IMG/VR virus record: IMGVR_UViG_3300020446_001468
Location: 1-33,820 of that record
Origin: a virus
DNA: 33,820 nt
Reading direction: 5' to 3' (one strand)
In this document: piece after piece, positions 3,043 to 22,578 of the stretch
How positions within the stretch are numbered: the stretch's first letter is position 1
How the letters are laid out: each line of letters begins with the position of its first letter
Notes under the pieces: model-generated
What the model was told of the DNA's origin: nothing
The model's input: only the letters and a program-made list of their open reading frames with translations
Databases searched by the model: none
Program-made: the position numbers and the translations under genes

Positions 3043-3047
3043 TTTTA

Positions 3048-3505: not shown

Positions 3506-3553
3506 AACATTCAACCATAAAATTTAAACATTAATAACTTAAAGGAGTAAATT

Positions 3554-4378
3554 ATGGCAATTAATATTGACGCAATCAGAGGTAGACTGAACAAACTACA
3601 AAACACACAAAAGAAGTCTGACAATTTATGGAAACCAACACCTGGTAAACATCAAGTCAGAATCGTTCCCTACAAATTCGAAAAAGATAATCCTTTCATC
3701 GAATTGTATTTTCACTACAACATTAATAACAAAACTTATCTCTCACCACAATCATTTGGTAGACCTGACCCAATCGTTGAGTTCGCTGATAGATTAAAGA
3801 GAATGGGTGATAAGGAAGATTGGAAAGCTGCAAAACAAATGGAGCCGAAGTTAAGAACTTTCGTACCAATCTTAGTAAGAGGACAAGAAGGTGAAGGAAT
3901 CAAATTTTGGGGATTCGGTAAAACTGTATATCAAGAAATCTTAGGTTACATAGCTGACCCAGATTATGGAGATATTACAGACCCAAAGAATGGTAGAGAT
4001 ATTACTATCGAATACCAATCTGCGGAAGAAGCAGGAACTTCATATCCTGTAACTACTATTAGAGTTAAACCAAATCAAACACCATTAGCTAAAGAAGCAG
4101 ATGATGTTACTAAGTTTTTAGATGGGCAAACTGAAATCACAGATTTATATTCAGAGTTATCTTACGATGAATTAAAAGGTGTGTTAGAAGGATGGTTAAA
4201 TCCAACTGCAGAATCTAAAAATGATGAGGGTGAATCTTCTGTAGCAGAAGAAACACTTTCTAAAAAACCTACAGAAGAGGTAAACGATTTACCATTTGAT
4301 GTAGAAGATGATAAGCCAAAAGCAACTAAGAAAACAGATGATGTTGCAGCGGCATTTGATGATTTGTTTAACAACTAA
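3554..4378 (+). CDS. 32: Single-stranded DNA-binding protein, T4 gp32-like
   Basis: A 274-residue protein that coats ssDNA at the replication fork and during recombination. The N-terminal basic segment with a LNKLQ-type motif, then LWKPTPGKHQVRIVPY, FIELYFHYN and KFWGFGKTVYQEI, follow the order of the T4 gp32 core OB-fold. The C-terminal tail from about 220 is rich in Asp and Glu and ends DDVAAAFDDLFNN, the acidic protein-interaction tail expected for an SSB. The whole protein has no cysteine, so the zinc site of T4 gp32 is missing; the region where it would lie reads SPQSFGRPDP. It precedes uvsX by 12 bases, a logical pairing for recombination and replication. Confidence 0.9.
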   Translation: MAINIDAIRGRLNKLQNTQKKSDNLWKPTPGKHQVRIVPYKFEKDNPFIELYFHYNINNKTYLSPQSFGRPDPIVEFADRLKRMGDKEDWKAAKQMEPKLRTFVPILVRGQEGEGIKFWGFGKTVYQEILGYIADPDYGDITDPKNGRDITIEYQSAEEAGTSYPVTTIRVKPNQTPLAKEADDVTKFLDGQTEITDLYSELSYDELKGVLEGWLNPTAESKNDEGESSVAEETLSKKPTEEVNDLPFDVEDDKPKATKKTDDVAAAFDDLFNN

Positions 4379-5781: not shown

Positions 5782-6828
5782 ATGAAAAAACTCTACAAAG
5801 ATATTCTCAATTCGGTTGAGAGAGCACATGACCAAAATATCGATAGGAAACGAAATGACCGAGTTCTAATTATCGATGGTCTTAATACATTTATCAGATG
5901 TTGGTCATCCATTCCTACAATGAATGATGATGGTGAGCATGTTGGTGGTGTAACTGGTGTTCTGAAATCAATAGGTTATGCGATTAGAAATACTCAACCT
6001 ACGAGAGTAATTGTAGTGTTTGATGGTAAGGGAGGTTCTCAGAAGAGAAAGAAACGTTTTAGTGGGTACAAATCTGAACGTTCAAAGAATAAGTTAAGAG
6101 TCAATAGACAATATGCTGATTTGATGAACGATGAGGATGAAAGAGAATCAATGAAAAGACAATTTGTTTGGTTGGCTGACATTATGAACTATCTACCTAT
6201 GACAACGATGATTTATGATGGTTGTGAAGCTGATGATGTAATGGCATACATCAGTACACAATTACTGAAAGAGAACGAACAAGCGGTGGTTATGTCTACT
6301 GATAAGGATTTCCTACAATTAGTAGATGATACAACCATCGTTTGGTCTCCTACCAAAAAGAAACTTTACAACAAAGAGTTGGTAAAGGAAGAATATGGTA
6401 TTGAATCTAAGAATCTACTTCTATACAGAGTTTTAGATGGAGATAAATCAGATAATATACCAGGCGTTTATGGATGTGGTATAAAAACATTAGTTAAAAG
6501 ATTTCCTGAAATCACCGAAAATAAAAAACTTTCGATAGATGATTTGTTTAGTTTAGCTGAAGAAAAGAAAGGAAAGATTAAAATATATGATGATATACTA
6601 AAATCTAAAGACCAAATCTTAATGAATAGAGAACTAATGCAGTTAGATAATCCTGATTTATCAGGAAATATAAAACTAAATGTTTTAGATAGATTTCATG
6701 AAGAAATAAATCCAATCAATAAATTGGAAATTATGAAAGTGCTCATGAAGTACAAATGTGTAGACCAATTTGGTAACCTAAATGATTATCTTCGTGATAC
6801 ATTTTCAATGATAGTAACAAAAAAGTAA
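5782..6828 (+). CDS. rnh: 5'-3' exonuclease, T4 RNase H / FEN-like
   Basis: A 348-residue PIN/FEN-superfamily nuclease that would remove RNA primers and flaps from lagging-strand fragments. Metal-binding acidic residues are visible in order: Asp32 (LIIDGLN), Asp81 (VVFDGK), the CEADDV block and the TDKDF block. GDKSDNIPGV, with a GCGIKT tail, matches the helix-three-turn-helix DNA-binding element. The basic segment KRKKRFSGYKSER would be the helical arch. Length is close to the T4 protein (about 305) with some extra C-terminal sequence. It starts one base after the previous stop. A strong promoter follows its end, so it closes the gp32-uvsX unit. Confidence 0.9.
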   Translation: MKKLYKDILNSVERAHDQNIDRKRNDRVLIIDGLNTFIRCWSSIPTMNDDGEHVGGVTGVLKSIGYAIRNTQPTRVIVVFDGKGGSQKRKKRFSGYKSERSKNKLRVNRQYADLMNDEDERESMKRQFVWLADIMNYLPMTTMIYDGCEADDVMAYISTQLLKENEQAVVMSTDKDFLQLVDDTTIVWSPTKKKLYNKELVKEEYGIESKNLLLYRVLDGDKSDNIPGVYGCGIKTLVKRFPEITENKKLSIDDLFSLAEEKKGKIKIYDDILKSKDQILMNRELMQLDNPDLSGNIKLNVLDRFHEEINPINKLEIMKVLMKYKCVDQFGNLNDYLRDTFSMIVTKK

Positions 6829-6835
6829 AAAAAGA

Positions 6836-6867
6836 TTTGGATATATCAAATATTTTTCTTATATTTG
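6836..6867 (+). promoter_or_regulatory. Bacteroidota-type promoter, family member B
   Basis: TTTG at 6836-6839 and TATATTTG at 6860-6867, exactly 20 bases apart; the -7 box is a perfect TAnnTTTG. The spacer starts GATATATCAAA, as in member A. Transcription would start near 6874, leaving an RNA leader of about 105 bases before the start at 6980, the longest leader in this promoter family. Confidence 0.85.
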
Positions 6868-6875
6868 TAAAATAT

Positions 6876-6963
6876 AGTCTGAAGATACCTACAGACTTGA
6901 AACGATAGGTATAAATTAATAACAAATATCTCTGAAAACGCACATAGAGGCCAAAGAGATATT
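6876..6963 (+). ncRNA. Structured leader RNA: H-type pseudoknot plus 9-bp hairpin
   Basis: Three perfect helices can be drawn. AGTCTG 6876-6881 pairs with CAGACT 6892-6897. ATACCTA 6885-6891 pairs with TAGGTAT 6906-6912, crossing the first helix, so the two make an H-type pseudoknot with loops of 3, 0 and 8 bases. Further on AATATCTCT 6925-6933 pairs with AGAGATATT 6955-6963, with a 21-base loop, ending 16 bases before the start codon. Pairings are read directly. A regulatory function, such as a translational switch, riboswitch or protein-binding leader, is inferred. I do not recognise it as a known riboswitch class. Confidence 0.55.
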
Positions 6964-6979
6964 AAAAACACAATTATTT

Positions 6980-8461
6980 ATGGAAGAATTATTTATTTAT
7001 TGCGAAGAAGCCGAAGATAAGTTCGGTAAAACAAAAAAATCCGTTTCACATAACGGTGATGTTAGTGTAGATTACTTAACAAGTAATACAACACCATCAA
7101 TTGAAACTGGTGCTAGAGAGTATCAGAGAGAGAAGGTGGCTCCACTTTCTTGGAAACAACTTATTATGTTAACAGTGATATCAAATGGATATCGAAAAAT
7201 ACCACAAATACATATTAGAGTTATTAAAGTAGGTAAAACATATAGGTTTGAGCTAATAGATGGTCAACAAAGGATTACATCTATTATTGATTTCATTAGA
7301 GGTGGATTTTCTTTACCTAATACTGATATCTTTAATTTAGGTAATGGTATTGATGTTAGAGGAATGAACATTAGTGATATTAGAGAAAACTATCCAGCTA
7401 TTTATCAACAAATATTGGGATATAGAATTAGTTGTTTATGGTATGAAAATTTGAGTGATGAACAAACAGCTGATTTGTTTATCAATGTATTGAATAATAC
7501 TAATGCTATGAAACCACAAGAAATTAGAAATGCAGTTAGAGGTTACTTATCTGAGTATATTAGAAATAGTGCTAGATTTGAAGATAGATTAGATTTATTT
7601 GAAAGAACTTTTACTGATGGTAAAAATAAAAAACAAAGACTTAAACATTTTTCTGATTCATTTTCACTAAGTGGTAGAATGGAAGTAGATGAGTGGTTAT
7701 CTGAGTTAATATTTTTGTTACAGAATGGTTACAGAAATGGAGTAGGACAAGCAAAACATACTGCATATATAAAAGAAATCCAAGCTTCTAATGGTTCTTT
7801 ATCTTCTATAGAAGCGTTTGAGGAGTTTAAAGAAGATGTGCTTGATGAACTTTTATCATTTAGTTATGATATTATAACTTCTGTACCAGCAGATTACAAA
7901 TACAAATTGACATCAATGTTATCTCAAGTATTAATTTTATACGGATATGAGTTGAAAACTAAACATGGTAAGCTAATTACTGATAGATATGTATCTAAGT
8001 TTTTCGATGTATATGATAGATGGAGTAATACTGATGATAAATTGTATCTAAACGAAGTAATGTTTGGTACAACAGATGAACAAATGGAGCCATTCAATAA
8101 ATTGTTTAATGGTAAAAATAAGAAAGCTTTCAGTACTATAACTTATGTTCTTGATAAAGAAGTAAAAGAAGATAAAGATTCTTTTGGAGTTATTGATATT
8201 GATAGTAGAGATTTTACTAAACCACAAATTATTCAGAAGTGGGAAGAGCAAGGTAGAAAATGTTTCTTTACAAATCAACCTTTAACTTTAAATCAAATAG
8301 CAGGTGACCACTATATTCCAAGAAGTTGGGGTATTGATAAAGGTGGAGTTACCGAAGTACATAATCTCGTAATAACTTCTAAAAAATTAAATATTAGAAA
8401 GTTAAATGTACATGGAGATGATTTCAAAAAAATGTTAAATGATAAAGAGATTTTAACTTAA
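6980..8461 (+). CDS. DUF262-HNH protein, GmrSD-like modification-dependent nuclease
   Basis: A 493-residue protein with an N-terminal DUF262 (ParB/sulfiredoxin-like NTPase) domain: REYQRE at 46-51 and the signature DGQQR at 94-98 in LIDGQQRITSI. The C-terminal 75 residues form an HNH/treble-clef nuclease: C428, GDHYIPRSWG with His444, and HNL at 461-463 followed by KLN. Only one Cys of the usual zinc pairs is present, so this is a reduced treble clef. In bacteria this architecture (GmrSD type IV restriction) cuts glycosylated hydroxymethylcytosine DNA. Here it is phage-borne, behind its own promoter and structured leader, and overlaps the next gene, a glycosyltransferase, by one base. Attack on rival modified phages is a reasonable inference; the substrate is unknown. 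Confidence 0.8.
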   Translation: MEELFIYCEEAEDKFGKTKKSVSHNGDVSVDYLTSNTTPSIETGAREYQREKVAPLSWKQLIMLTVISNGYRKIPQIHIRVIKVGKTYRFELIDGQQRITSIIDFIRGGFSLPNTDIFNLGNGIDVRGMNISDIRENYPAIYQQILGYRISCLWYENLSDEQTADLFINVLNNTNAMKPQEIRNAVRGYLSEYIRNSARFEDRLDLFERTFTDGKNKKQRLKHFSDSFSLSGRMEVDEWLSELIFLLQNGYRNGVGQAKHTAYIKEIQASNGSLSSIEAFEEFKEDVLDELLSFSYDIITSVPADYKYKLTSMLSQVLILYGYELKTKHGKLITDRYVSKFFDVYDRWSNTDDKLYLNEVMFGTTDEQMEPFNKLFNGKNKKAFSTITYVLDKEVKEDKDSFGVIDIDSRDFTKPQIIQKWEEQGRKCFFTNQPLTLNQIAGDHYIPRSWGIDKGGVTEVHNLVITSKKLNIRKLNVHGDDFKKMLNDKEILT

Positions 8462-9588
8462 TGAGTTTTTGGGAAACAAAAATTGATTACAAAGATGCTA
8501 GAAAGGTGTTGGTGATACCAAATATCACCAATGCCTCTAACATCGAAAAGGACTCTTTTGTAGATGTTCTTTACAATCATATCATCGCATTAGATAATGA
8601 AGGTGAATATTATTGGAATGTAATCTTACCAAAGCCCGTAAAGAAACTAAACTTAGAAAATGTAAAACAACACATCCTACCATTCTCAGGTGATATGATG
8701 AATCAAAGAGCTTTCCCACCTGATTTTATTAAGTTGATGAAGGATGTTGAGTATGATGTAATTTACTCACATTTACCTGATTGGGTTCAAGTTGGTAGAT
8801 ATAAGAAAAATGTTGATACAAAAATAATTGGATATTGTCATTGGTGGGAAATGAAATCTGCCAATGGAGTTGATAGGAGACCGGGCAAAGCAAAATGGAT
8901 GTGGTTACCTATAGAATTATTAGGAGTATCACAAATGGATACTTGTTATCTTAATACGCAAGACCAAAAGAACAGAGTATTGGAAGAAGCTAGTGAAACT
9001 TTTAGTGAAGAGTTTGTTTCTGATTTAGATAATATTCTAAAGGTTTGGAATTTGGGTGTGGATAAATCTAAGATAATTGAGAAACCATCAGATGAAAAAA
9101 GAAATGTTATTGTATTCAATCATAGAGCAGCTGGTTACAAAGGTTATCCTGCTTTTCTAAAGTTGATGAGAGAATACAGAAAACAAAGAGAGGACTTTGT
9201 AGTATGGATTCCTCAGTTGGTTGGTAAATCACCTGAAACTTGGATTGATAATACAAAAGTTCCAAAGCATGAATACTACCAAAGATTACAGAATTGTAAA
9301 GTTGGTGTACAGATGAGACAAACAAATTATGGTTGGAGTGTAAGTGGTACGGATTGTATGATGAATGGTACTCCAATGATATTTCAGGACTCATTGTGTT
9401 ATAGAGAGATTGACCCTAATGGGTTATTCTTCAAAAAGAAAACAGAATTTTTCGATTTGTTAGATAAAATGTTGGATGATGATATATTTAGATTTACCCA
9501 CGAACTTCGTTCTTTAGAAAGAGCAAAAGAATTATCTACAAACGAAGGTAAAATGATTAAAGAACTTCATAAACAGTTAAATACTTAA
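8461..9588 (+). CDS. GT-B type glycosyltransferase
   Basis: A 375-residue protein with features of a two-domain GT-B glycosyltransferase. The N-terminal half has a VLVIPNIT strand and DVIYSHLPDWVQVG. The second begins near VIVFNHRAAGYKGYPAFLKLM, typical of the start of the nucleotide-sugar-binding domain, and includes a late GTDCMMNGTPMI segment where GT4-like enzymes contact the donor. Start and stop use TAATG one-base overlaps on both sides, linking it to the DUF262-HNH gene before it and to the polymerase after it. That position in the replication block suggests a DNA-sugar modification role, though a protein or glycan acceptor cannot be excluded. It shares the opening MSFW(E/D)T with the protein at 12865. 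Confidence 0.75.
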   Translation: MSFWETKIDYKDARKVLVIPNITNASNIEKDSFVDVLYNHIIALDNEGEYYWNVILPKPVKKLNLENVKQHILPFSGDMMNQRAFPPDFIKLMKDVEYDVIYSHLPDWVQVGRYKKNVDTKIIGYCHWWEMKSANGVDRRPGKAKWMWLPIELLGVSQMDTCYLNTQDQKNRVLEEASETFSEEFVSDLDNILKVWNLGVDKSKIIEKPSDEKRNVIVFNHRAAGYKGYPAFLKLMREYRKQREDFVVWIPQLVGKSPETWIDNTKVPKHEYYQRLQNCKVGVQMRQTNYGWSVSGTDCMMNGTPMIFQDSLCYREIDPNGLFFKKKTEFFDLLDKMLDDDIFRFTHELRSLERAKELSTNEGKMIKELHKQLNT

Positions 9589-12107
9589 TGTACCAAAACG
9601 TATATTATCAAAGAGAAAAAAACTTAGTTCACCTTTGGGATGATAAATTAGGATATCGTTCTTTTCCATACACTCGTTATGCGTATGAAAAAGCAGATAG
9701 AGGAGAAGCAGTATCTTTGTACGGAGATAGATTAACAAAGATTTACAAATTCTCAAAAGATGACCCTAACTTATTTGAATCAGATGTACCTGAAACGACT
9801 AGAGTATTAGTAGATACTTATACCGATTCAGATTTACCATCAGAAGGACACGTAATTCTTACATATGATATTGAGTGTGAGATGGAAACTGGTTTACCAA
9901 ATCCTGAAGAAGCTAAGAACGAACTAACTTCTATCGCATTACATGATTCAGCAACCAATCAGTATTGGGTGTTGGTAATGGATAAAGATGGTTTGATGGT
10001 AGAAAAGAAAACAGATAAAGCAATCGTAATCCCATTCAAAGATGAAAGGGATATGTTAATGAAGTTTTTAGAACTATATGAATATATCAATCCATCAATT
10101 GTTACGGGTTGGAATATTGATTACTTTGATACACCTATGTTATATAACAGAATCAAAAGATTATTAGGTGAAAGACATGCAAACAGATTATCACCTATTG
10201 GTAAATGTTTCTGGTCACCTTATAGAAAAAGATTCTTTATGGCTGGTGTATCTTATTTAGATTATTTAGCACTTTACAAAAACTTTACTTATACAGAGTT
10301 GGATAATTACCGATTGGATTCTATTGCTAACAAAGAGTTAGGGAGAGGAAAGGTAGAATATGCAGGTAACTTAGACCAACTATTCAGAGATGATATAGAG
10401 AAGTTCATTGAGTACAACTTAGTTGATGTTGAATTGGTTGTTGATATGGATAAGAAACTACAGTTCATCGATACGGCTAGAGGTATCTGTCATGCAGGTC
10501 ACGTTCCATATGAGGATTTTGTTTATTCATCAAAATACTTAGAAGGGGCACTACTATGTTACCTTAAAAGGAAAGGTATCGTAGCACCGAACAAACCTGC
10601 TGACAGACAAGAGAGGATGCAAGCTCTAAGGGATAACAATGAAGAAAAATTCATTGGAGCATATGTGAAAGCGCCTATCGTTGGTAAGTACGAATGGATT
10701 TATGATTTGGATTTGACTTCTCTATATCCCTCTATCATTATGAGTATTAATATCTCACCTGAAACTAAAGTTGGTAAGATTGAAGATTGGAGTGCAGAGG
10801 ATTTTGTAAAAGGTAAAAGAGATAAATGGATTATTAATGGAGATACAATTACGCAGGAGAATCTCAAAAAGTTCTTTGATAAATCAAAGTTTTCAGTAGC
10901 ATCAAATGGTGTATTATATAGAACAGATACAGTTGGTTGTATACCTGATATCTTAGATATTTGGTTCAATCAAAGAGTTGAATTCAAAAATCAAATGAAA
11001 GAGCATGGAAAAGCAGGGAACAAAGCAAAATATGAATGGTATAAAAAACGTCAGTTGGTACAGAAGATTCTACTTAACTCTTTATATGGGGTGCTTGGTC
11101 TTCCTGCCTTTAGGTTCTATGATGTTGATAATGCTACCGCTGTTACCACGACAGGACAAACAGTTATTAAATCAACTGCTGATATGGCTAACATCAAGTA
11201 CAATAAGGAGCTTGGTGATAGTACTTTGGATTCTAACATATACATCGATACTGATTCTGTATTCTTTTCGGCAGTACCTTTATTAGATAAAAGGATACCT
11301 AATTGGAAAGATAATGAGCAGGATACTATCGCTGGATTTGTAAATGATATAGCAGAAGAGATGCAGGATTATCTAAATGGATTCTATGATATTTTATCTG
11401 AAAAAGTTTTCAATGTAGATAAAGATAAACATCGATTTGAAATTAAAAAAGAATATGTTTCAAAGAGTGGTATTTGGATAGCAAAGAAAAGATATGCTCA
11501 ATGGATTATTTCAGATAATGGAGTACCTGTTGATAAATTAGATGTAAAGGGATTAGATGTTGTTAGGTCATCTTATCCAGCAGCTTTTAGAAAGTTTATG
11601 AGTGAAGTACTCATTGATATTCTGAAAGGTAATACTGAAAGTGAACTAACTGATAAGATTTGGGGATTCAAAAAAAGTTTATCTGAAATGAATGTTGTAC
11701 AAATCGCAAAAAATACATCGGTTAAAAATCTAACAAAGTACTTACCGAAAGGTAAACAACAAAGAATGTTTCAATTTAAATCAGCAACACCAGCTCACGT
11801 CAAAGCAGCTATTGCTTTCAATCAATTATTATCTCACTACAAATGTGAGATGAAATATGAACCGATGAAAAATGGTGATAAAGTAAAATGGGTTTATTTA
11901 AAACAAAATCCATTAGGTTTAGATGGAGTAGCATTCAAAGGTTATGATGACCCAAAAGAAATTATGGAATTAGTCAATACATACATTGATTATGATAAAA
12001 TCTTTGAAAGAGAACTTCTAAAGAAATTAGAAGATTTCTACAACGCAATGGATTGGGGTGAAGTTTTATCCTCAACCAAAACAGCTGAAAAGTTTTTTGC
12101 TTTTTAA
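9588..12107 (+). CDS. 43: Family B DNA polymerase, T4 gp43-like
   Basis: The 839-residue replicative polymerase with proofreading. The 3'-5' exonuclease domain shows Asp94 and Glu96 (TYDIECE), NIDYFDTPML, and the YNLVDVELV block. The polymerase domain has motif A DLDLTSLYPS at 373-382, a motif B region containing KILLNSLYGVLG, motif C YIDTDS at 552-557, and KKRYAQ at 633-638. T4 gp43 is slightly longer (898). The gene starts on the last base of the preceding glycosyltransferase stop. A promoter for the clamp gene begins one base after its stop. The C-terminal tail may carry a clamp-binding peptide (EKFFAF at the very end); that is inference from its position. Confidence 0.97.
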   Translation: MYQNVYYQREKNLVHLWDDKLGYRSFPYTRYAYEKADRGEAVSLYGDRLTKIYKFSKDDPNLFESDVPETTRVLVDTYTDSDLPSEGHVILTYDIECEMETGLPNPEEAKNELTSIALHDSATNQYWVLVMDKDGLMVEKKTDKAIVIPFKDERDMLMKFLELYEYINPSIVTGWNIDYFDTPMLYNRIKRLLGERHANRLSPIGKCFWSPYRKRFFMAGVSYLDYLALYKNFTYTELDNYRLDSIANKELGRGKVEYAGNLDQLFRDDIEKFIEYNLVDVELVVDMDKKLQFIDTARGICHAGHVPYEDFVYSSKYLEGALLCYLKRKGIVAPNKPADRQERMQALRDNNEEKFIGAYVKAPIVGKYEWIYDLDLTSLYPSIIMSINISPETKVGKIEDWSAEDFVKGKRDKWIINGDTITQENLKKFFDKSKFSVASNGVLYRTDTVGCIPDILDIWFNQRVEFKNQMKEHGKAGNKAKYEWYKKRQLVQKILLNSLYGVLGLPAFRFYDVDNATAVTTTGQTVIKSTADMANIKYNKELGDSTLDSNIYIDTDSVFFSAVPLLDKRIPNWKDNEQDTIAGFVNDIAEEMQDYLNGFYDILSEKVFNVDKDKHRFEIKKEYVSKSGIWIAKKRYAQWIISDNGVPVDKLDVKGLDVVRSSYPAAFRKFMSEVLIDILKGNTESELTDKIWGFKKSLSEMNVVQIAKNTSVKNLTKYLPKGKQQRMFQFKSATPAHVKAAIAFNQLLSHYKCEMKYEPMKNGDKVKWVYLKQNPLGLDGVAFKGYDDPKEIMELVNTYIDYDKIFERELLKKLEDFYNAMDWGEVLSSTKTAEKFFAF

Positions 12108-12169: not shown

Positions 12170-12865
12170 ATGGAAAAACAAAAACTAAATGGTTTTATTA
12201 GTAGATATAATCTCGGTGGTGAGGTTGAATCTGTAATGTTAACTTCAACCGATGATTCAGTATCGGTTAAAATGATTTCAGATGACAAAACTCTATTGGG
12301 TGATGTTACTGTAACTGAAAAAGATTTCCCATCAGGTGAGTTTGGTATCTATACCACTTCTCAGTTGAAAGGATTGTTAAGTGTATTAGATTCATCAGTT
12401 AAGATAGAAGAAACAACAGGCGCTCTTAGATTTAGTGATAAGGGAACTAAGGTTCAGTATATGTTAGCTGCACCATCTGTTATACCAGCGGTACCTGATT
12501 TAAAAGAACTTCCTCCATTTGATGCTAACATTACATTAGATGATGAGTTTATTAACAAATACATCAAGTCTAAGGGAGCATTGGCAGATGCGGATACATT
12601 TACATTCACTTGTAAGAATAACAAAGGAGAAATCATCTTAGGTTATTCATCAATTAATTCAAACAGAATTTCTATTTCTGTAAATTGTAGTTGTGATAAT
12701 GATATTGAACCAATAGCATTCTCAGCTAAGTATCTAAAAGAAATATTAACTGCAAACAAAGGTTCAAACAAATCATCACTTAAAATTTCATCTAAAGGAT
12801 TAGCGCATGTAGGATTTGAAGATGGTGATTATACTTCTAACTATTATTTGGTGGAGATTAAATAA
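12170..12865 (+). CDS. 45: Sliding clamp, T4 gp45-like
   Basis: A 231-residue processivity clamp, close to T4 gp45 (228). In T4 a trimer encircles DNA and tethers the polymerase; it also serves as the mobile activator of late transcription. The order of features fits: an N-terminal LNGFISRYNLGGEVESVML, a central TSQLKGLLSVLDSSVKIEE, and the C-terminal block with IAFSAKYLKEIL and NYYLVEIK at the very end. It has its own promoter and ends in a TAATG overlap with the DUF4338-like gene. No late sigma or gp33/gp55 homologue is recognisable in the window, so its transcription role here is open. Confidence 0.92.
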   Translation: MEKQKLNGFISRYNLGGEVESVMLTSTDDSVSVKMISDDKTLLGDVTVTEKDFPSGEFGIYTTSQLKGLLSVLDSSVKIEETTGALRFSDKGTKVQYMLAAPSVIPAVPDLKELPPFDANITLDDEFINKYIKSKGALADADTFTFTCKNNKGEIILGYSSINSNRISISVNCSCDNDIEPIAFSAKYLKEILTANKGSNKSSLKISSKGLAHVGFEDGDYTSNYYLVEIK

Positions 12866-14076
12866 TGAGTTTTTGGGATACAGAACCAGCTAAACCTCAA
12901 TTCGTATTTGAAGATGAGAAGAAAAAACTCATTGATAATATGGATTACCTCATGCAGATGTCTGTAGAGGAACAAACTCTGTACAAAAAGTGGGTAGAGT
13001 TGCAGGAAGATTCTATGCTTAGAGATAAATCTACAATAGCATCTTACTACGATTGGCAGTGGAGACCTACAGATATCAACAATAAAGAACTTACAATCAA
13101 AGAGATTGAGGAATTAGAACCCTATGTTGAAATCGTTGAAGATAAGAATGAAGCTACAAAGTGGACTCATCTTAGAAGAATGATTCATACAATGAGTTGG
13201 ACAGCTAATCCTGGTCGAAATGTTAAGTTGTTTGTTAAGGATAAAAAGAGTGGTAAACTTTTGGGGATGGTATCACTTGCATCTGATGTAACATCAATGG
13301 GTGTAAGAGATAAATATATTGGCTGGACTAAGGATGATAAATTCAAAAAAGGTAAACTAAACTTTACAACTATCGCATCTACGATTGTTTGTACACAACC
13401 TTTAGGATTCAATTTCTTAGGAGGTAAACTTACCGCTATGATGACCACTGTACCTGAGGTTAGAGAATATTGGAAAAAGAAATATGGACAAACTCTTATA
13501 GCAGTTGGTACAACTTCTTTGTATGGTATTCATTCTCAGTATAATGGTATCCCACATTTTAAAACTTTGGGTGAATCAGCTGGAAAGATATCAATCAAAC
13601 CAGATGATGAGTTCTATGACCCGTGGCACCAATGGTTGAAAGAAAACAGAGAAGATTGGTATAAGAAACACATTACCGAAGAGAGAGAAAGAAATGGTAA
13701 GAGTATGGGTTATGAAAGAAACGGACCTGTTAGTGGTATCAAACAAAAGATTTTAGGACAAATCTTTAAAGAGTGTGGTATCAAACAATCCAGTTATCAT
13801 CATGGATTTAAAAGAGGAGTGTATCTTGCTATGATGTATGAAAACGGACCTGAGTTTCTTCGTTCAGAAATTGAAGAAAAAGATTTAAAGATGAAGAAGA
13901 AATTTGAGGATGGTATTGATTACATTAATAAGTGGTGGAAACGACAAGCCATCAAAAGATATACTAAGTTACATGATTCTAATCGATTGAAGCCAGAACA
14001 TCTATATTATATAGATGCCATTGGTATGGATTGGGATACTATGAAACAAAATTATTTAAAAGAAGTCGGAAGATAG
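12865..14076 (+). CDS. DUF4338/DruA-like protein embedded in the replisome operon
   Basis: A 403-residue protein. Residues 98 to about 240 show the pattern I associate with DUF4338 (the core of the Druantia defence protein DruA, a GNAT-like fold): GKLLGMVSLAS, then RDKYIGWT at 148-155, a long IASTIVCTQPLGFNFLGGKL strand-helix region, YWKKKYGQ, and a final TTSLYG...QYNGIPHFKTLG block. The C-terminal 160 residues are basic and mostly helical, possibly nucleic-acid binding. It overlaps the clamp gene by one base and precedes gp44. Activity is unknown even for DruA, so no reaction is claimed. The domain call is by motif reading and needs a profile search. Confidence 0.6.
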   Translation: MSFWDTEPAKPQFVFEDEKKKLIDNMDYLMQMSVEEQTLYKKWVELQEDSMLRDKSTIASYYDWQWRPTDINNKELTIKEIEELEPYVEIVEDKNEATKWTHLRRMIHTMSWTANPGRNVKLFVKDKKSGKLLGMVSLASDVTSMGVRDKYIGWTKDDKFKKGKLNFTTIASTIVCTQPLGFNFLGGKLTAMMTTVPEVREYWKKKYGQTLIAVGTTSLYGIHSQYNGIPHFKTLGESAGKISIKPDDEFYDPWHQWLKENREDWYKKHITEERERNGKSMGYERNGPVSGIKQKILGQIFKECGIKQSSYHHGFKRGVYLAMMYENGPEFLRSEIEEKDLKMKKKFEDGIDYINKWWKRQAIKRYTKLHDSNRLKPEHLYYIDAIGMDWDTMKQNYLKEVGR

Positions 14077-17577: not shown

Positions 17578-18573
17578 ATGAGCAAATTATTCGAAGAACG
17601 AGTCCCGTTCAAACCATTTGAGTATCCGATATACTACAATGAAGGTTGGTTAAAACAAGCACAAGCATTTTGGCTCCATACTGAAATCCCAATGCAAGGG
17701 GATGTGAAGGATTGGAATGAAAGATTAACTGATTCCGAAAAGAATCTGGTAGGTAATATCCTATTAGGATTTGCACAAACAGAATGTGCAGTATCAGATT
17801 ATTGGACTAATATGGTTACGGACTGGTTTCCTAAACATGAAATAAGACAGATGGCAATGATGTTTGGTTCACAAGAAACTATTCATGCAACTGCATATTC
17901 TTATTTAAACGAAACTTTAGGATTGGATGATTTCTCAGCATTTTTACATGAACCTGCAGTAGCTGAAAAGTTTGAGTTACTGACAGCAACTTCCGCAGAG
18001 TGGAAACACACAGACTTACAAAAGAACGAAAAAGCAAGACAGGAAGTAGGTAGGAGTTTAGCAATCTTCTCAGCATTCGCTGAAGGTGTATCTCTTTACT
18101 CTTCCTTTGCTGTTCTTTACTCATTTCAAATGAGAAACAAACTAAAAGGAATCGGACAACAAATGAAATGGAGTGTAAGAGATGAATCACTTCATAGTAG
18201 AATGGGATGTCAATTATTCAGACATATGTGTGAAGAATATCCCGAACTCAAAGAACAATGTAAAGATTCCATTGAAGAAGCTGCTAGATTAATCGTTGAA
18301 CTAGAAGTCAATTTTATTGATAAAATGTTTGAGATGGGCGATTTAGAAAATCTAAAAGCAGATGACTTAAAAGAATTTATTAAAGCAAGAACAAACTCTA
18401 AGTTAAAAGAATTAGGATATGAAGGTATCTTTGAATTCGATAAAGATAAATCAGAAAACTTAGATTGGTTCTATCATTTAACAGGTGGACATACCCATAC
18501 AGATTTCTTCGCTATCAGACCTACTGATTACAGTAAAGCAAATGAAGGTGAAGATTGGGATGATTTATTTTAA
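17578..18573 (+). CDS. nrdB: Ribonucleotide reductase small subunit (class I, NrdB)
   Basis: The 331-residue radical-generating subunit that, with NrdA, converts ribonucleotides to deoxyribonucleotides. Metal ligands can be read as Glu69 (AQTEC), Glu100 and His103 (QETIH), Glu169 (AEGVSL), and Glu203 and His206 (RDESLH). The tyrosine equivalent to the radical-bearing residue is kept (Tyr107, seven after Glu100). The first ligand is Glu where classic class Ia/Ib has Asp. A Glu ligand with Tyr kept recalls what is reported for subclass Id dimanganese enzymes of flavobacteria, so the cofactor may not be the usual iron-tyrosyl type. nrdA follows after 9 bases. Confidence 0.93.
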   Translation: MSKLFEERVPFKPFEYPIYYNEGWLKQAQAFWLHTEIPMQGDVKDWNERLTDSEKNLVGNILLGFAQTECAVSDYWTNMVTDWFPKHEIRQMAMMFGSQETIHATAYSYLNETLGLDDFSAFLHEPAVAEKFELLTATSAEWKHTDLQKNEKARQEVGRSLAIFSAFAEGVSLYSSFAVLYSFQMRNKLKGIGQQMKWSVRDESLHSRMGCQLFRHMCEEYPELKEQCKDSIEEAARLIVELEVNFIDKMFEMGDLENLKADDLKEFIKARTNSKLKELGYEGIFEFDKDKSENLDWFYHLTGGHTHTDFFAIRPTDYSKANEGEDWDDLF

Positions 18574-18582
18574 TTAAACATT

Positions 18583-20367
18583 ATGGCAAAAACTAATTAC
18601 GGCTCAGAATTTGGCTGGGAGTTGGATGTTGATTTTCCTTCTTGGGCAAATACAGAAATATATGTAAAAACTATATCCAAAGGATATCTATTAGCTGGTG
18701 AAAAACCAAAAGATGCTTATTGGAGGGTGGCAACAACTGTTGCACGAAGATTGAATAAACCTCAATTAGCAACTAAATTCTTCGATTATATTTGGAAGGG
18801 TTGGTTAAACTTAGCAACACCTGTACTTTCTAATACTGGTACTGATAGAGGATTACCAATCAGTTGTTTTGGTATCGATGTAGCAGACTCAATTTATGAT
18901 ATTGGTAAAAAGAACTTAGAACTAATGTTACTTGCCAAACATGGTGGTGGAGTAGGTATTGGTATTAATCAAATTAGACCAGCTGGTTCTATTATCACTG
19001 GTAATGGAACATCAGATGGTGTTGTACCATTCGCTAAAATATACGATTCTACAATTCTTGCTACGAATCAAGGTTCAGTAAGAAGAGGAGCAGCATCAGT
19101 AAACTTAAATATCGAACATGATGATTTTGAAGATTGGTTAGAAATCAGAGAACCAAAAGGTGATGTTAATAGACAATCACTTAATCTACATCAATGTGCA
19201 ATCGTTGGTGATAAGTTTATGAGAAAACTACAAGATGGAGAGCCAGATGCTAGAAGAAAATGGGGCAAATTACTTCAAAAAAGAAAAGCAACTGGTGAAC
19301 CCTATATTATGTTTAAAGGAAATACCAACAAAGCTAATCCCGAAATGTATAAAAAGAATGGATTAAAAGTTTTTATGACTAATATCTGTTCTGAGATAGT
19401 ATTACATACAGATGAATCACATTCATTTGTTTGTTGTTTATCCTCACTTAACTTAGCAAAGTATGATGAGTGGAGAGATACCGATTTAGTTTATACAGCT
19501 ACAACATTTTTAGATGGAGTTCTTTCAGAGTTCATTCAGAAAGCAAAGAATATGAGAGGATTTGAAAATGCAGTTCGTTCAGCAGAAAAAGGTAGAGCAT
19601 TAGGACTAGGAGTTTTAGGATGGCACACTTACCTACAACAAAGAGGTATTCCATTTGAAGGTATGGAAGCACAATTTGAAACTCGTAAAGTATTCTCACA
19701 ATTAAAAATTGAATCAGAAAGAGCTAGTAGAGATTTAGCATCAGAATATGGTGAACCACTTTGGTGTAAAGAAACTGGATTTAGAAACACACACCTTAGA
19801 GCAGTTGCACCAACAGTATCCAACTCAAAGTTAGCTGGTAATTCATCACCAGGTATTGAGCCTTGGGCAGCAAATGTATTTACAGAACAAACTTCTAAAG
19901 GAACTTTCATCAGAAAAAATCCTGAATTAGAAAAAGTATTAAGAAAGTTAAAATTAAATAACAAAGATACTTGGGATACAATCTTAGAAGATGGAGGTTC
20001 AGTACAAGGAATCAAAGAATTAGATAAGTGGTGTTACTTAGAAGGTAAAATGGTTCTTTGTAAGGATATAACAAATGGAGATAGAGATAAAGTATATCCA
20101 GTAAAAGATGTATTCAAAACATTTAAAGAAATTAATCAAATGGATTTAGTTAAGCAAGCTGGTGTTAGACAGCAGTACATTGACCAATCTGTTTCGTTAA
20201 ACTTAGCATTCCCTTCGATAGCAACACCGAAGTGGATTAATCAGGTAACAATGGAAGCTTGGAAGCAAGGGATTAAAACATTGTACTATATGAGAACTGA
20301 ATCAGTACTAAGAGGTGATATCGCAGAAAGAGCAGTAGACCCAGATTGTGTTGCATGTGATGGTTAA
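18583..20367 (+). CDS. nrdA: Ribonucleotide reductase large subunit (class I, NrdA)
   Basis: The 594-residue catalytic subunit of class I ribonucleotide reductase. Active-site residues are visible: Cys95 (PISCFG), the N267-x-C269-x-E271 triad (NICSE), the paired Cys284/285 (FVCCLSS) supplying the second redox cysteine, the radical-relay Tyr568/Tyr569 (LYYMR), and C-terminal Cys589/Cys592 (DCVAC) that re-reduce the active site. It is much shorter than the E. coli enzyme (about 760), because the N-terminal ATP-cone is absent: the protein starts almost directly in the catalytic fold. Loss of the cone would free it from dATP inhibition, useful for a replicating phage. A thioredoxin gene lies 20 bases downstream as the likely reductant. 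Confidence 0.94.
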   Translation: MAKTNYGSEFGWELDVDFPSWANTEIYVKTISKGYLLAGEKPKDAYWRVATTVARRLNKPQLATKFFDYIWKGWLNLATPVLSNTGTDRGLPISCFGIDVADSIYDIGKKNLELMLLAKHGGGVGIGINQIRPAGSIITGNGTSDGVVPFAKIYDSTILATNQGSVRRGAASVNLNIEHDDFEDWLEIREPKGDVNRQSLNLHQCAIVGDKFMRKLQDGEPDARRKWGKLLQKRKATGEPYIMFKGNTNKANPEMYKKNGLKVFMTNICSEIVLHTDESHSFVCCLSSLNLAKYDEWRDTDLVYTATTFLDGVLSEFIQKAKNMRGFENAVRSAEKGRALGLGVLGWHTYLQQRGIPFEGMEAQFETRKVFSQLKIESERASRDLASEYGEPLWCKETGFRNTHLRAVAPTVSNSKLAGNSSPGIEPWAANVFTEQTSKGTFIRKNPELEKVLRKLKLNNKDTWDTILEDGGSVQGIKELDKWCYLEGKMVLCKDITNGDRDKVYPVKDVFKTFKEINQMDLVKQAGVRQQYIDQSVSLNLAFPSIATPKWINQVTMEAWKQGIKTLYYMRTESVLRGDIAERAVDPDCVACDG

Positions 20368-22389: not shown

Positions 22390-22421
22390 TTTGGATTTCT
22401 CAATTATTTTTCGTATATTAG
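22390..22421 (+). promoter_or_regulatory. Bacteroidota-type promoter, family member E
   Basis: TTTG at 22390-22393 and TATATTAG at 22414-22421, 20 bases apart; the spacer ends ATTTTTCG like the others. The -7 box ends only four bases before the ATG at 22426, so transcription would begin at or within a base or two of that codon. Confidence 0.8.
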
Positions 22422-22425
22422 TACT

Positions 22426-22578
22426 ATGAGAATACTTACAATTTTAACACAACTTTCACAAATTGAAAAAGATTTAAAAGCAAAGTGTGAACATAGTACA
22501 AATGAAATAGAAGGAGATAAATGGAGTAAACACCACGATAATATCATAAGTTTAATCAAAGATTTATCAAATGGCTAG
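22426..22578 (+). CDS. Small hypothetical protein (50 residues), possibly leaderless
   Basis: MRILTILTQLSQIEKDLK opens a 50-residue, mostly helical and charged protein of no recognised family. The longer reading from 22348 is rejected because it would run through promoter E. There is no other Met in the frame. The start lies at the predicted transcription start, hence a leaderless mRNA is likely. It overlaps the next gene by 8 bases. Coding status is moderate, resting on position and length only. Confidence 0.55.
   Translation: MRILTILTQLSQIEKDLKAKCEHSTNEIEGDKWSKHHDNIISLIKDLSNG

Follow-up and report, generated by a model that had tools for sequence, protein, structure and literature searches.

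Locus and gene content

The window, by which we mean the whole 33,820-nucleotide stretch of DNA analyzed here (IMG/VR virus record IMGVR_UViG_3300020446_001468), is a virus contig of 33.8 kb that carries a T4-like set of replication genes. Its DNA polymerase is <60% identical to that of any named phage (best 53%), and close relatives of this polymerase occur in hundreds of IMG/VR contigs, which include contigs of 130-270 kb. The features considered below are as follows.

3554-4378: gp32-like SSB gene (PHROG 1e-21)
5782-6828: 5'-3' exonuclease gene
6836-6867, + strand: Bacteroidota-type promoter, TTTG-N20-TATATTTG, predicted from the sequence
6876-6881 (AGTCTG) with 6892-6897 (CAGACT), + strand: stem 1 of the best H-type pseudoknot of the leader
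6885-6891 (ATACCTA) with 6906-6912 (TAGGTAT), + strand: stem 2 of the same pseudoknot
Loops of the pseudoknot: L1, AAG; L2, 0; L3, TGAAACGA (sizes 3/0/8)
6913-6924, + strand: unpaired A/U-rich linker from pseudoknot to hairpin (CAACAA/TAACAA kept in the related loci L005 and L205)
6925-6963, + strand: 9-bp hairpin (6925-6933 with 6955-6963), start of the loop, GAAAACG, conserved
6964-6979, + strand: unstructured A/U-rich 16-nt spacer up to the AUG (translation initiation region)
6980-8461, + strand: DUF262 (GmrSD_N-like)-HNH nuclease gene, downstream of the leader
8461-9588, + strand: glycosyltransferase-like gene (weak Glyco_transf_4 and Glycos_transf_1 matches; synteny in most relatives)
9588-12107, + strand: family B DNA polymerase (gp43-like) gene (Pfam DNA_pol_B 3.1e-41)
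Other replication genes in the window: RecA/UvsX-like protein, clamp, clamp loader and DnaB-like helicase

The nuclease, glycosyltransferase-like and polymerase genes overlap by 1 nt at 8461 and at 9588, which suggests that their translation is coupled. The Bacteroidota-type promoter (TTTG-N20-TAnnTTTG) recurs at 3047, 15884 and 23436 and is also found in most related loci; judging from these promoters, the host probably uses non-Shine-Dalgarno (non-SD) initiation. A Shine-Dalgarno-like AAAGGAG precedes the ATG of the SSB gene (3530-3556), which is unusual given such promoters. In addition, a DruA-domain (Druantia) protein is encoded at 12865-14076, between the clamp and clamp loader genes (Pfam 1.4e-20; PADLOC DruA 6.9e-20).

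The DUF262-HNH protein matched Pfam GmrSD_N at 4.7e-7 with 30.5 bits against a curated cut-off of 33.2, which was passed by the relatives in L035 and L100. It also matched the PADLOC profiles NsnA (1.9e-8) and REase_II (3.6e-8), and its C-terminus matched PHROG endonuclease VII (4.7e-5). In Foldseek, its fold weakly resembled ParB-N, HNH nucleases and BrxU; the matches to HNH domains had a probability of 1.0 over 75-98 columns, yet E-values of about 0.05. The protein has in common with the DUF262 nucleases GmrSD, BrxU and SspE a GmrSD_N-like N-terminal domain with a DGQQR motif and a putative C-terminal HNH domain. Unlike them, it is encoded by a phage, in a replication operon beside a glycosyltransferase, and its Pfam score falls just under the cut-off. 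The nuclease was not found in a scan of 84,980 bacterial and archaeal genomes, and a tblastn search of annotated phage records returned no DUF262 homologue.

Structure of the leader in the window

An earlier note on this DNA had proposed two crossing helices with loops of 3, 0 and 8 nt in the nuclease leader, next to a 9-bp hairpin ending 16 nt ahead of the AUG. All of these positions, those of the helices and of the hairpin, were confirmed, and an independent H-type scan with stacking energies returned the identical pseudoknot as the top one of the leader (stem 1 of 6 bp, L1 of 3 nt, stem 2 of 7 bp, L2 of 0 and L3 of 8 nt). Its score was reached by none of 4000 dinucleotide shuffles, in a simple energy model (stacking, coaxial stacking and a fixed pseudoknot penalty) that serves the comparison with shuffles and does not yield free energies. 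The nested fold of the leader gave a z-score of -4.3, and none of 200 shuffles was as good. Thus, the leader folds better than its dinucleotide-shuffled controls.

The pseudoknot begins 8 nt past the -7 box of the promoter at 6836-6867, so that its 5' edge would lie within a few nucleotides of the expected transcription start site (TSS), a position that we infer from the promoter. Its 3' end is 67 nt from the AUG, and the open stretches between the two amount to 12 + 16 nt only, the hairpin occupying the rest. The note had also considered this to be the only long leader of its promoter family. This agrees with the three other promoters, whose leaders are 21, 30 and 20 nt; a regular-expression scan, for its part, also returned a 149-nt case (22421-22571) and a 176-nt case on the minus strand, both of which are doubtful. 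No terminator was found in the leader, including after the hairpin and between the RNA and the gene, and a transcription attenuator was ruled out because no terminator follows the hairpin.

We also considered a toggle at the start codon, specific to the window, in which the stem 2 strand TAGGTAT has two alternative partners, its pseudoknot strand and the TATTTAT that spans the AUG; formation of the pseudoknot would then open the start. The bases near the AUG are indeed about 90% paired in the nested ensemble, and in the MFE structure they pair with the TAGGTAT strand. However, the competing duplex is much the weaker of the two (-2.6 versus -6.2 kcal/mol), and none of the folds predicted for L205, L016 and the sister group described below showed it, which makes such a switch very improbable.

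Relatives of the window leader

The DUF262-HNH gene sits in a hypervariable slot upstream of the glycosyltransferase and polymerase genes. In the contigs with the most similar polymerases (L033-L035, 93-97% identical), the slot is occupied by other genes or lies outside the contig, and the contig with a 100% identical polymerase (L032) starts within the glycosyltransferase gene. Therefore, relatives of the leader were sought via the nuclease. The slot lies between the exonuclease or L005-type genes of 225-265 aa and the glycosyltransferase-polB pair, and it holds a dozen or more genes of 400-680 aa that are unrelated or only very distantly related; these genes (DUF262-HNH, DGQHR-HNH and others without a Pfam match) swap among phages with near-identical polymerases.

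L205, which was located by a search with the hairpin sequence, has a hairpin almost identical to that of the window, and over their first 42 residues the two proteins share about 80% identity. At its 5' end, the L205 leader instead carries another H-type pseudoknot in the same place, ATGGG-GC-GGAGT-CCCAT-AGACA-ACTCC, which has no stem or loop sequence in common with the window pseudoknot and was matched by none of 2000 shuffles. L016 has a third distinct pseudoknot, GGG-TGA-TTGATGAG-CCC-(10 nt)-CTCATCAA, and again 0 of 2000 shuffles were as good. In other words, the pseudoknots of L205 and L016 have the topology, place and loop sizes of the window pseudoknot but differ from it in their letters. 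A weaker candidate is present in L025 (p = 0.03). L005 has no pseudoknot. Its hairpin is retained, differing from that of the window by two compensatory changes and two G-U changes, and its loop likewise starts with GAAAACG. In L006 and L017-L022, only the hairpin part (outer and inner stem) is present, with no pseudoknot, and its architecture is common to the window, L006, L016, L017-L022 and L025. The homologous alignments are small, with 4 and 6 distinct rows, and the L017-L021 set is by itself too small for a covariation test; comparative support for the window's own pseudoknot is topological (from L205 and L016) and not column by column. When IMG/VR was scanned with the letters of the window pseudoknot as a pattern, none of the eight matches had the fold.

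Given that the pseudoknot sequence is not conserved in close relatives, a sequence-specific operator or aptamer is excluded for this part of the leader. The sequence of the hairpin is kept, and sequence-specific recognition is possible there. The earlier note had suggested, among other means of control, the sensing of a ligand. Small riboswitches typically contain compact pseudoknots, and the long 5' leader would suit one. However, an Rfam search with the leader gave no match at the gathering score and only chance-level ones at a relaxed threshold, and there are no core nucleotides common to the window, L205, L016 and the sister group, so that we regard a riboswitch as the most improbable of the readings discussed here. 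An upstream ORF in the leader was also rejected; it occurs in L205, is absent from the window and is not conserved.

G-U pairs occur on the + strand in L149, L140, L005, L205 and L017-L021, and they would be A-C if the other strand were read. Because the G-U pairs are confined to the + strand, the molecule under selection is the mRNA. Palindromes acting at the DNA level, as protein-binding sites, are disfavoured for the same reason.

A sister gene with tandem pseudoknots

A sister gene occupies the same slot in L042, L061 and L140-L160. Its protein is of the DUF262 type, with DGQHR and HNH-like motifs and a PADLOC NsnA match like that of the window protein; a structure model of the sister protein stayed below a usable level of confidence. 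The leader of this gene consists of two tandem H-type pseudoknots, which are related but non-identical units. In the first, both sides changed in 5 of 11 pairs, with 100% of the cells paired, and in the second, compensatory changes were found in 3 of 12 pairs; together, 8 of the 23 base pairs had compensatory changes, counts that support the structure rather than measure it, the sister rows being few and related. The pairing was lost when the partner strand was slid by 1-3 columns. A scan with the pattern of the second pseudoknot found the fold in the same leader only, and the remaining matches were judged to be due to chance. Thus, as the earlier note had expected of real helices, their variation among relatives is accompanied by compensating changes (in the sister pseudoknots and in the hairpin relative to L005), and in L205 the place is taken by a pseudoknot with other stems.

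Specificity and geometry across the phage family

We scanned 108 distinct leaders of these phages without bias, and the top five pseudoknots all belonged to leaders of slot nuclease genes. Leaders of DUF262-type slot genes were longer than those of other slot genes (67-122 versus 24-78 nt; Mann-Whitney p = 2.6e-7, phylogeny ignored), and they folded better than controls (p = 0.003, in a small set with 11 controls). Most of the other slot genes, which share the promoter type, have leaders that are short and unstructured; further long slot leaders with possible pseudoknots were found in L053, L097 and L101. The link between DUF262-type genes and pseudoknot leaders is therefore strong, not exclusive. 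More distant DUF262 genes, from phages with SD-type hosts, have hairpin leaders, three of seven clearly above shuffles, and no clear pseudoknots. The leader of the DUF262-HNH gene is a real cis-acting RNA element that accompanies the nuclease gene.

Across relatives, stem 1 of the pseudoknot measures 3-6 bp, L1 1-3 nt, stem 2 5-8 bp, L2 0 and L3 5-10 nt. The 3' end of the first pseudoknot lies 61-76 nt ahead of the AUG, and in most relatives the last structure ends 13-23 nt ahead of it; the spacing of both to the AUG is constrained. It has previously been reported for Flavobacterium johnsoniae that pairing is generally lower between -20 and +20 and that structure in this region tunes initiation (PMC6847099). 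With structure that ends 13-23 nt before the AUG, the leader is folded up to, and not into, the initiation region.

Comparison with known systems

The operator of gene 32 in T4 and RB69 consists of a 5' pseudoknot followed by a less structured A/U-rich segment with the RBS (PMC535899; PMC3014915). The window leader resembles the T4/T2/RB69 operator in its 5' H-type pseudoknot with coaxial stems about 60-70 nt before the AUG, in the A/U-rich initiation region that follows, and in its occurrence in T4-like phages with a sequence that diverges and a shape that stays. Unlike that operator, it would govern a DUF262-HNH nuclease gene at the head of a polymerase operon and not the SSB gene, it carries an extra hairpin or a second pseudoknot, and its host, judging from the promoters, would be non-SD. 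The operator's less structured segment of >40 nt with UUAAA/UAAA repeats is missing in the window, where the 9-bp hairpin lies instead. Membership of the gene 32 type was therefore rejected (wrong gene, no long open segment), and the leader would work most like this operator without belonging to it.

This likeness raises the question of whether the phage's own gp32-like SSB is the effector, nucleating on the pseudoknot and repressing the nuclease-polymerase operon when it exceeds the single-stranded DNA. Such a protein is encoded in the window, and the distance from pseudoknot to AUG, 67 nt, is the value given for T4 (PMC3014915). However, a hairpin lies between pseudoknot and AUG in place of long unstructured UUAAA repeats, the regulated gene is not that of the SSB, and the SSB gene's own leader has no comparable pseudoknot. 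For these reasons, this assignment of the effector seems distinctly unlikely.

The leader is also reminiscent of the RNAs of type III toxin-antitoxin systems (ToxI, CptI and antiQ), in which an H-type pseudoknot lies just upstream of a nuclease gene. The ToxI monomer is itself an H-type pseudoknot, and closely related toxins of type III have conserved antitoxins (PMC5086642). In favour of a pseudoknot RNA that binds and restrains the DUF262-HNH protein in a similar manner, one or more pseudoknots stand immediately upstream of a potentially toxic nuclease, and the sister group has a tandem pair. However, the window has one pseudoknot and no tandem near-identical repeats of about 34-36 nt, no Rho-independent terminator separates RNA from gene, and the predicted enzyme is a DNA nuclease, not a ToxN-like endoribonuclease. 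Moreover, the pseudoknots of the window and L205 are unrelated in sequence despite the similarity of their proteins at the N-terminus. We consider an inhibitory RNA to be very unlikely, and membership of the type III antitoxins was rejected on the absence of window repeats, of a terminator and of conservation with the protein.

Phage homing endonuclease genes (I-TevI, mobE and segB) have leader hairpins that sequester the RBS and are thought to delay or reduce synthesis. The window leader is similar in that RNA structure precedes a phage nuclease gene, but it is a pseudoknot and not a simple hairpin, and the start is left open by a conserved structure that stops 13-23 nt upstream of the AUG. 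An RBS-sequestering hairpin was rejected, since no RBS or start codon lies within a conserved stem and the pairing of the AUG predicted for the window was not seen in the folds of relatives.

A proposed mechanism

Based on these results, we propose that the leader is a cis-acting control element, most likely translational, in which a protein binds the folded 5' end and limits or times initiation on the nuclease gene; we place the probability of this reading at about one half. The mRNA would be folded from just past the TSS to the ribosome-binding edge, as H-type pseudoknot, A/U linker and hairpin, the last ending about 16 nt before the AUG at the edge of the presumed 30S subunit site. A phage or host protein would read the pseudoknot by shape and the hairpin by sequence and shape, and once bound it would limit or time initiation in the A/U-rich stretch around the AUG, the way gp32 works from the T4 pseudoknot. 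Via the one-base gene overlaps, repression could spread to the glycosyltransferase and polymerase genes by translational coupling. The phage's own SSB and the nuclease itself are candidate effectors. The reality of the structure, its association with DUF262-type genes, its constrained spacing to the AUG and selection on the + strand are observed, and action on translation, a protein effector, its identity and the coupling are inferred from them. That the shape of the pseudoknot is kept while its letters are nearly free suggests that the shape itself sets the amount of enzyme made.

Its main rival is that the pseudoknot and hairpin, bound by nothing, stabilise the 5' end, shielding the operon mRNA from 5'-end-dependent decay while keeping the AUG open. 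A fold at the 5' end, free in sequence with its shape kept, that stops before the initiation region fits this, and a fold that reaches the ribosome footprint is also expected of a pure mRNA stabiliser. However, this explanation accounts neither for the mostly short open leaders of the other slot genes with the same promoter type nor for the near-invariant hairpin of the window and L205 beside a changed pseudoknot, and we judge it to be unlikely. Counting against translational control by a bound protein, L005, L006 and L017-L022 manage without a pseudoknot. The earlier note had held that a nuclease gene of this kind would need tight control, for which a ligand, a phage protein or translation were named as possible means. 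What stands is a real RNA element of the DUF262-HNH gene, of a gene type with typically structured leaders; the ligand found no backing in Rfam or in a conserved core, and the best remaining reading would be regulation through translation or through a phage protein.

These genes form an independent phage gene set with repeated 5' pseudoknots, whose shape is kept while the sequence turns over, in probably non-Shine-Dalgarno hosts. The natural variants (window, L205, L016, L140, L148, L151 and L159) offer a ready-made test of how shape by itself is read, and they also bear on how phages restrain a nuclease able to cut their own DNA. A broader and rather unlikely reading is that a shape-only, sequence-free pseudoknot operator forms an evolvable cassette that travels with the DUF262-HNH nucleases of large T4-like Bacteroidota phages, its stems being rebuilt in close relatives, and that it couples an anti-competitor nuclease to DNA polymerase synthesis, or even inhibits the nuclease as RNA.

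Other structured regions

A genome-wide pseudoknot scan of three large relatives returned many high scorers, which were mostly terminator-like or tRNA stretches, or unrelated noncoding RNA (ncRNA); the slot leader of G001 was the only recognisable tandem case in that scan. On the minus strand of the 213.6-kb relative G003, the region 18190-18800 (L191) is stem-rich and has its own promoter, without a convincing ORF. It contains a strong H-type pseudoknot and terminator-like hairpins, gave no Rfam or ARAGORN match and may be a phage ncRNA. In L048, L052, L056 and L082, a short conserved hairpin (GGGTCGGAGCACC, GAGGTCGGAGTACCTC) stands at the head of the leaders of different slot genes and is similar to the first (5') half of the pseudoknot in L205.
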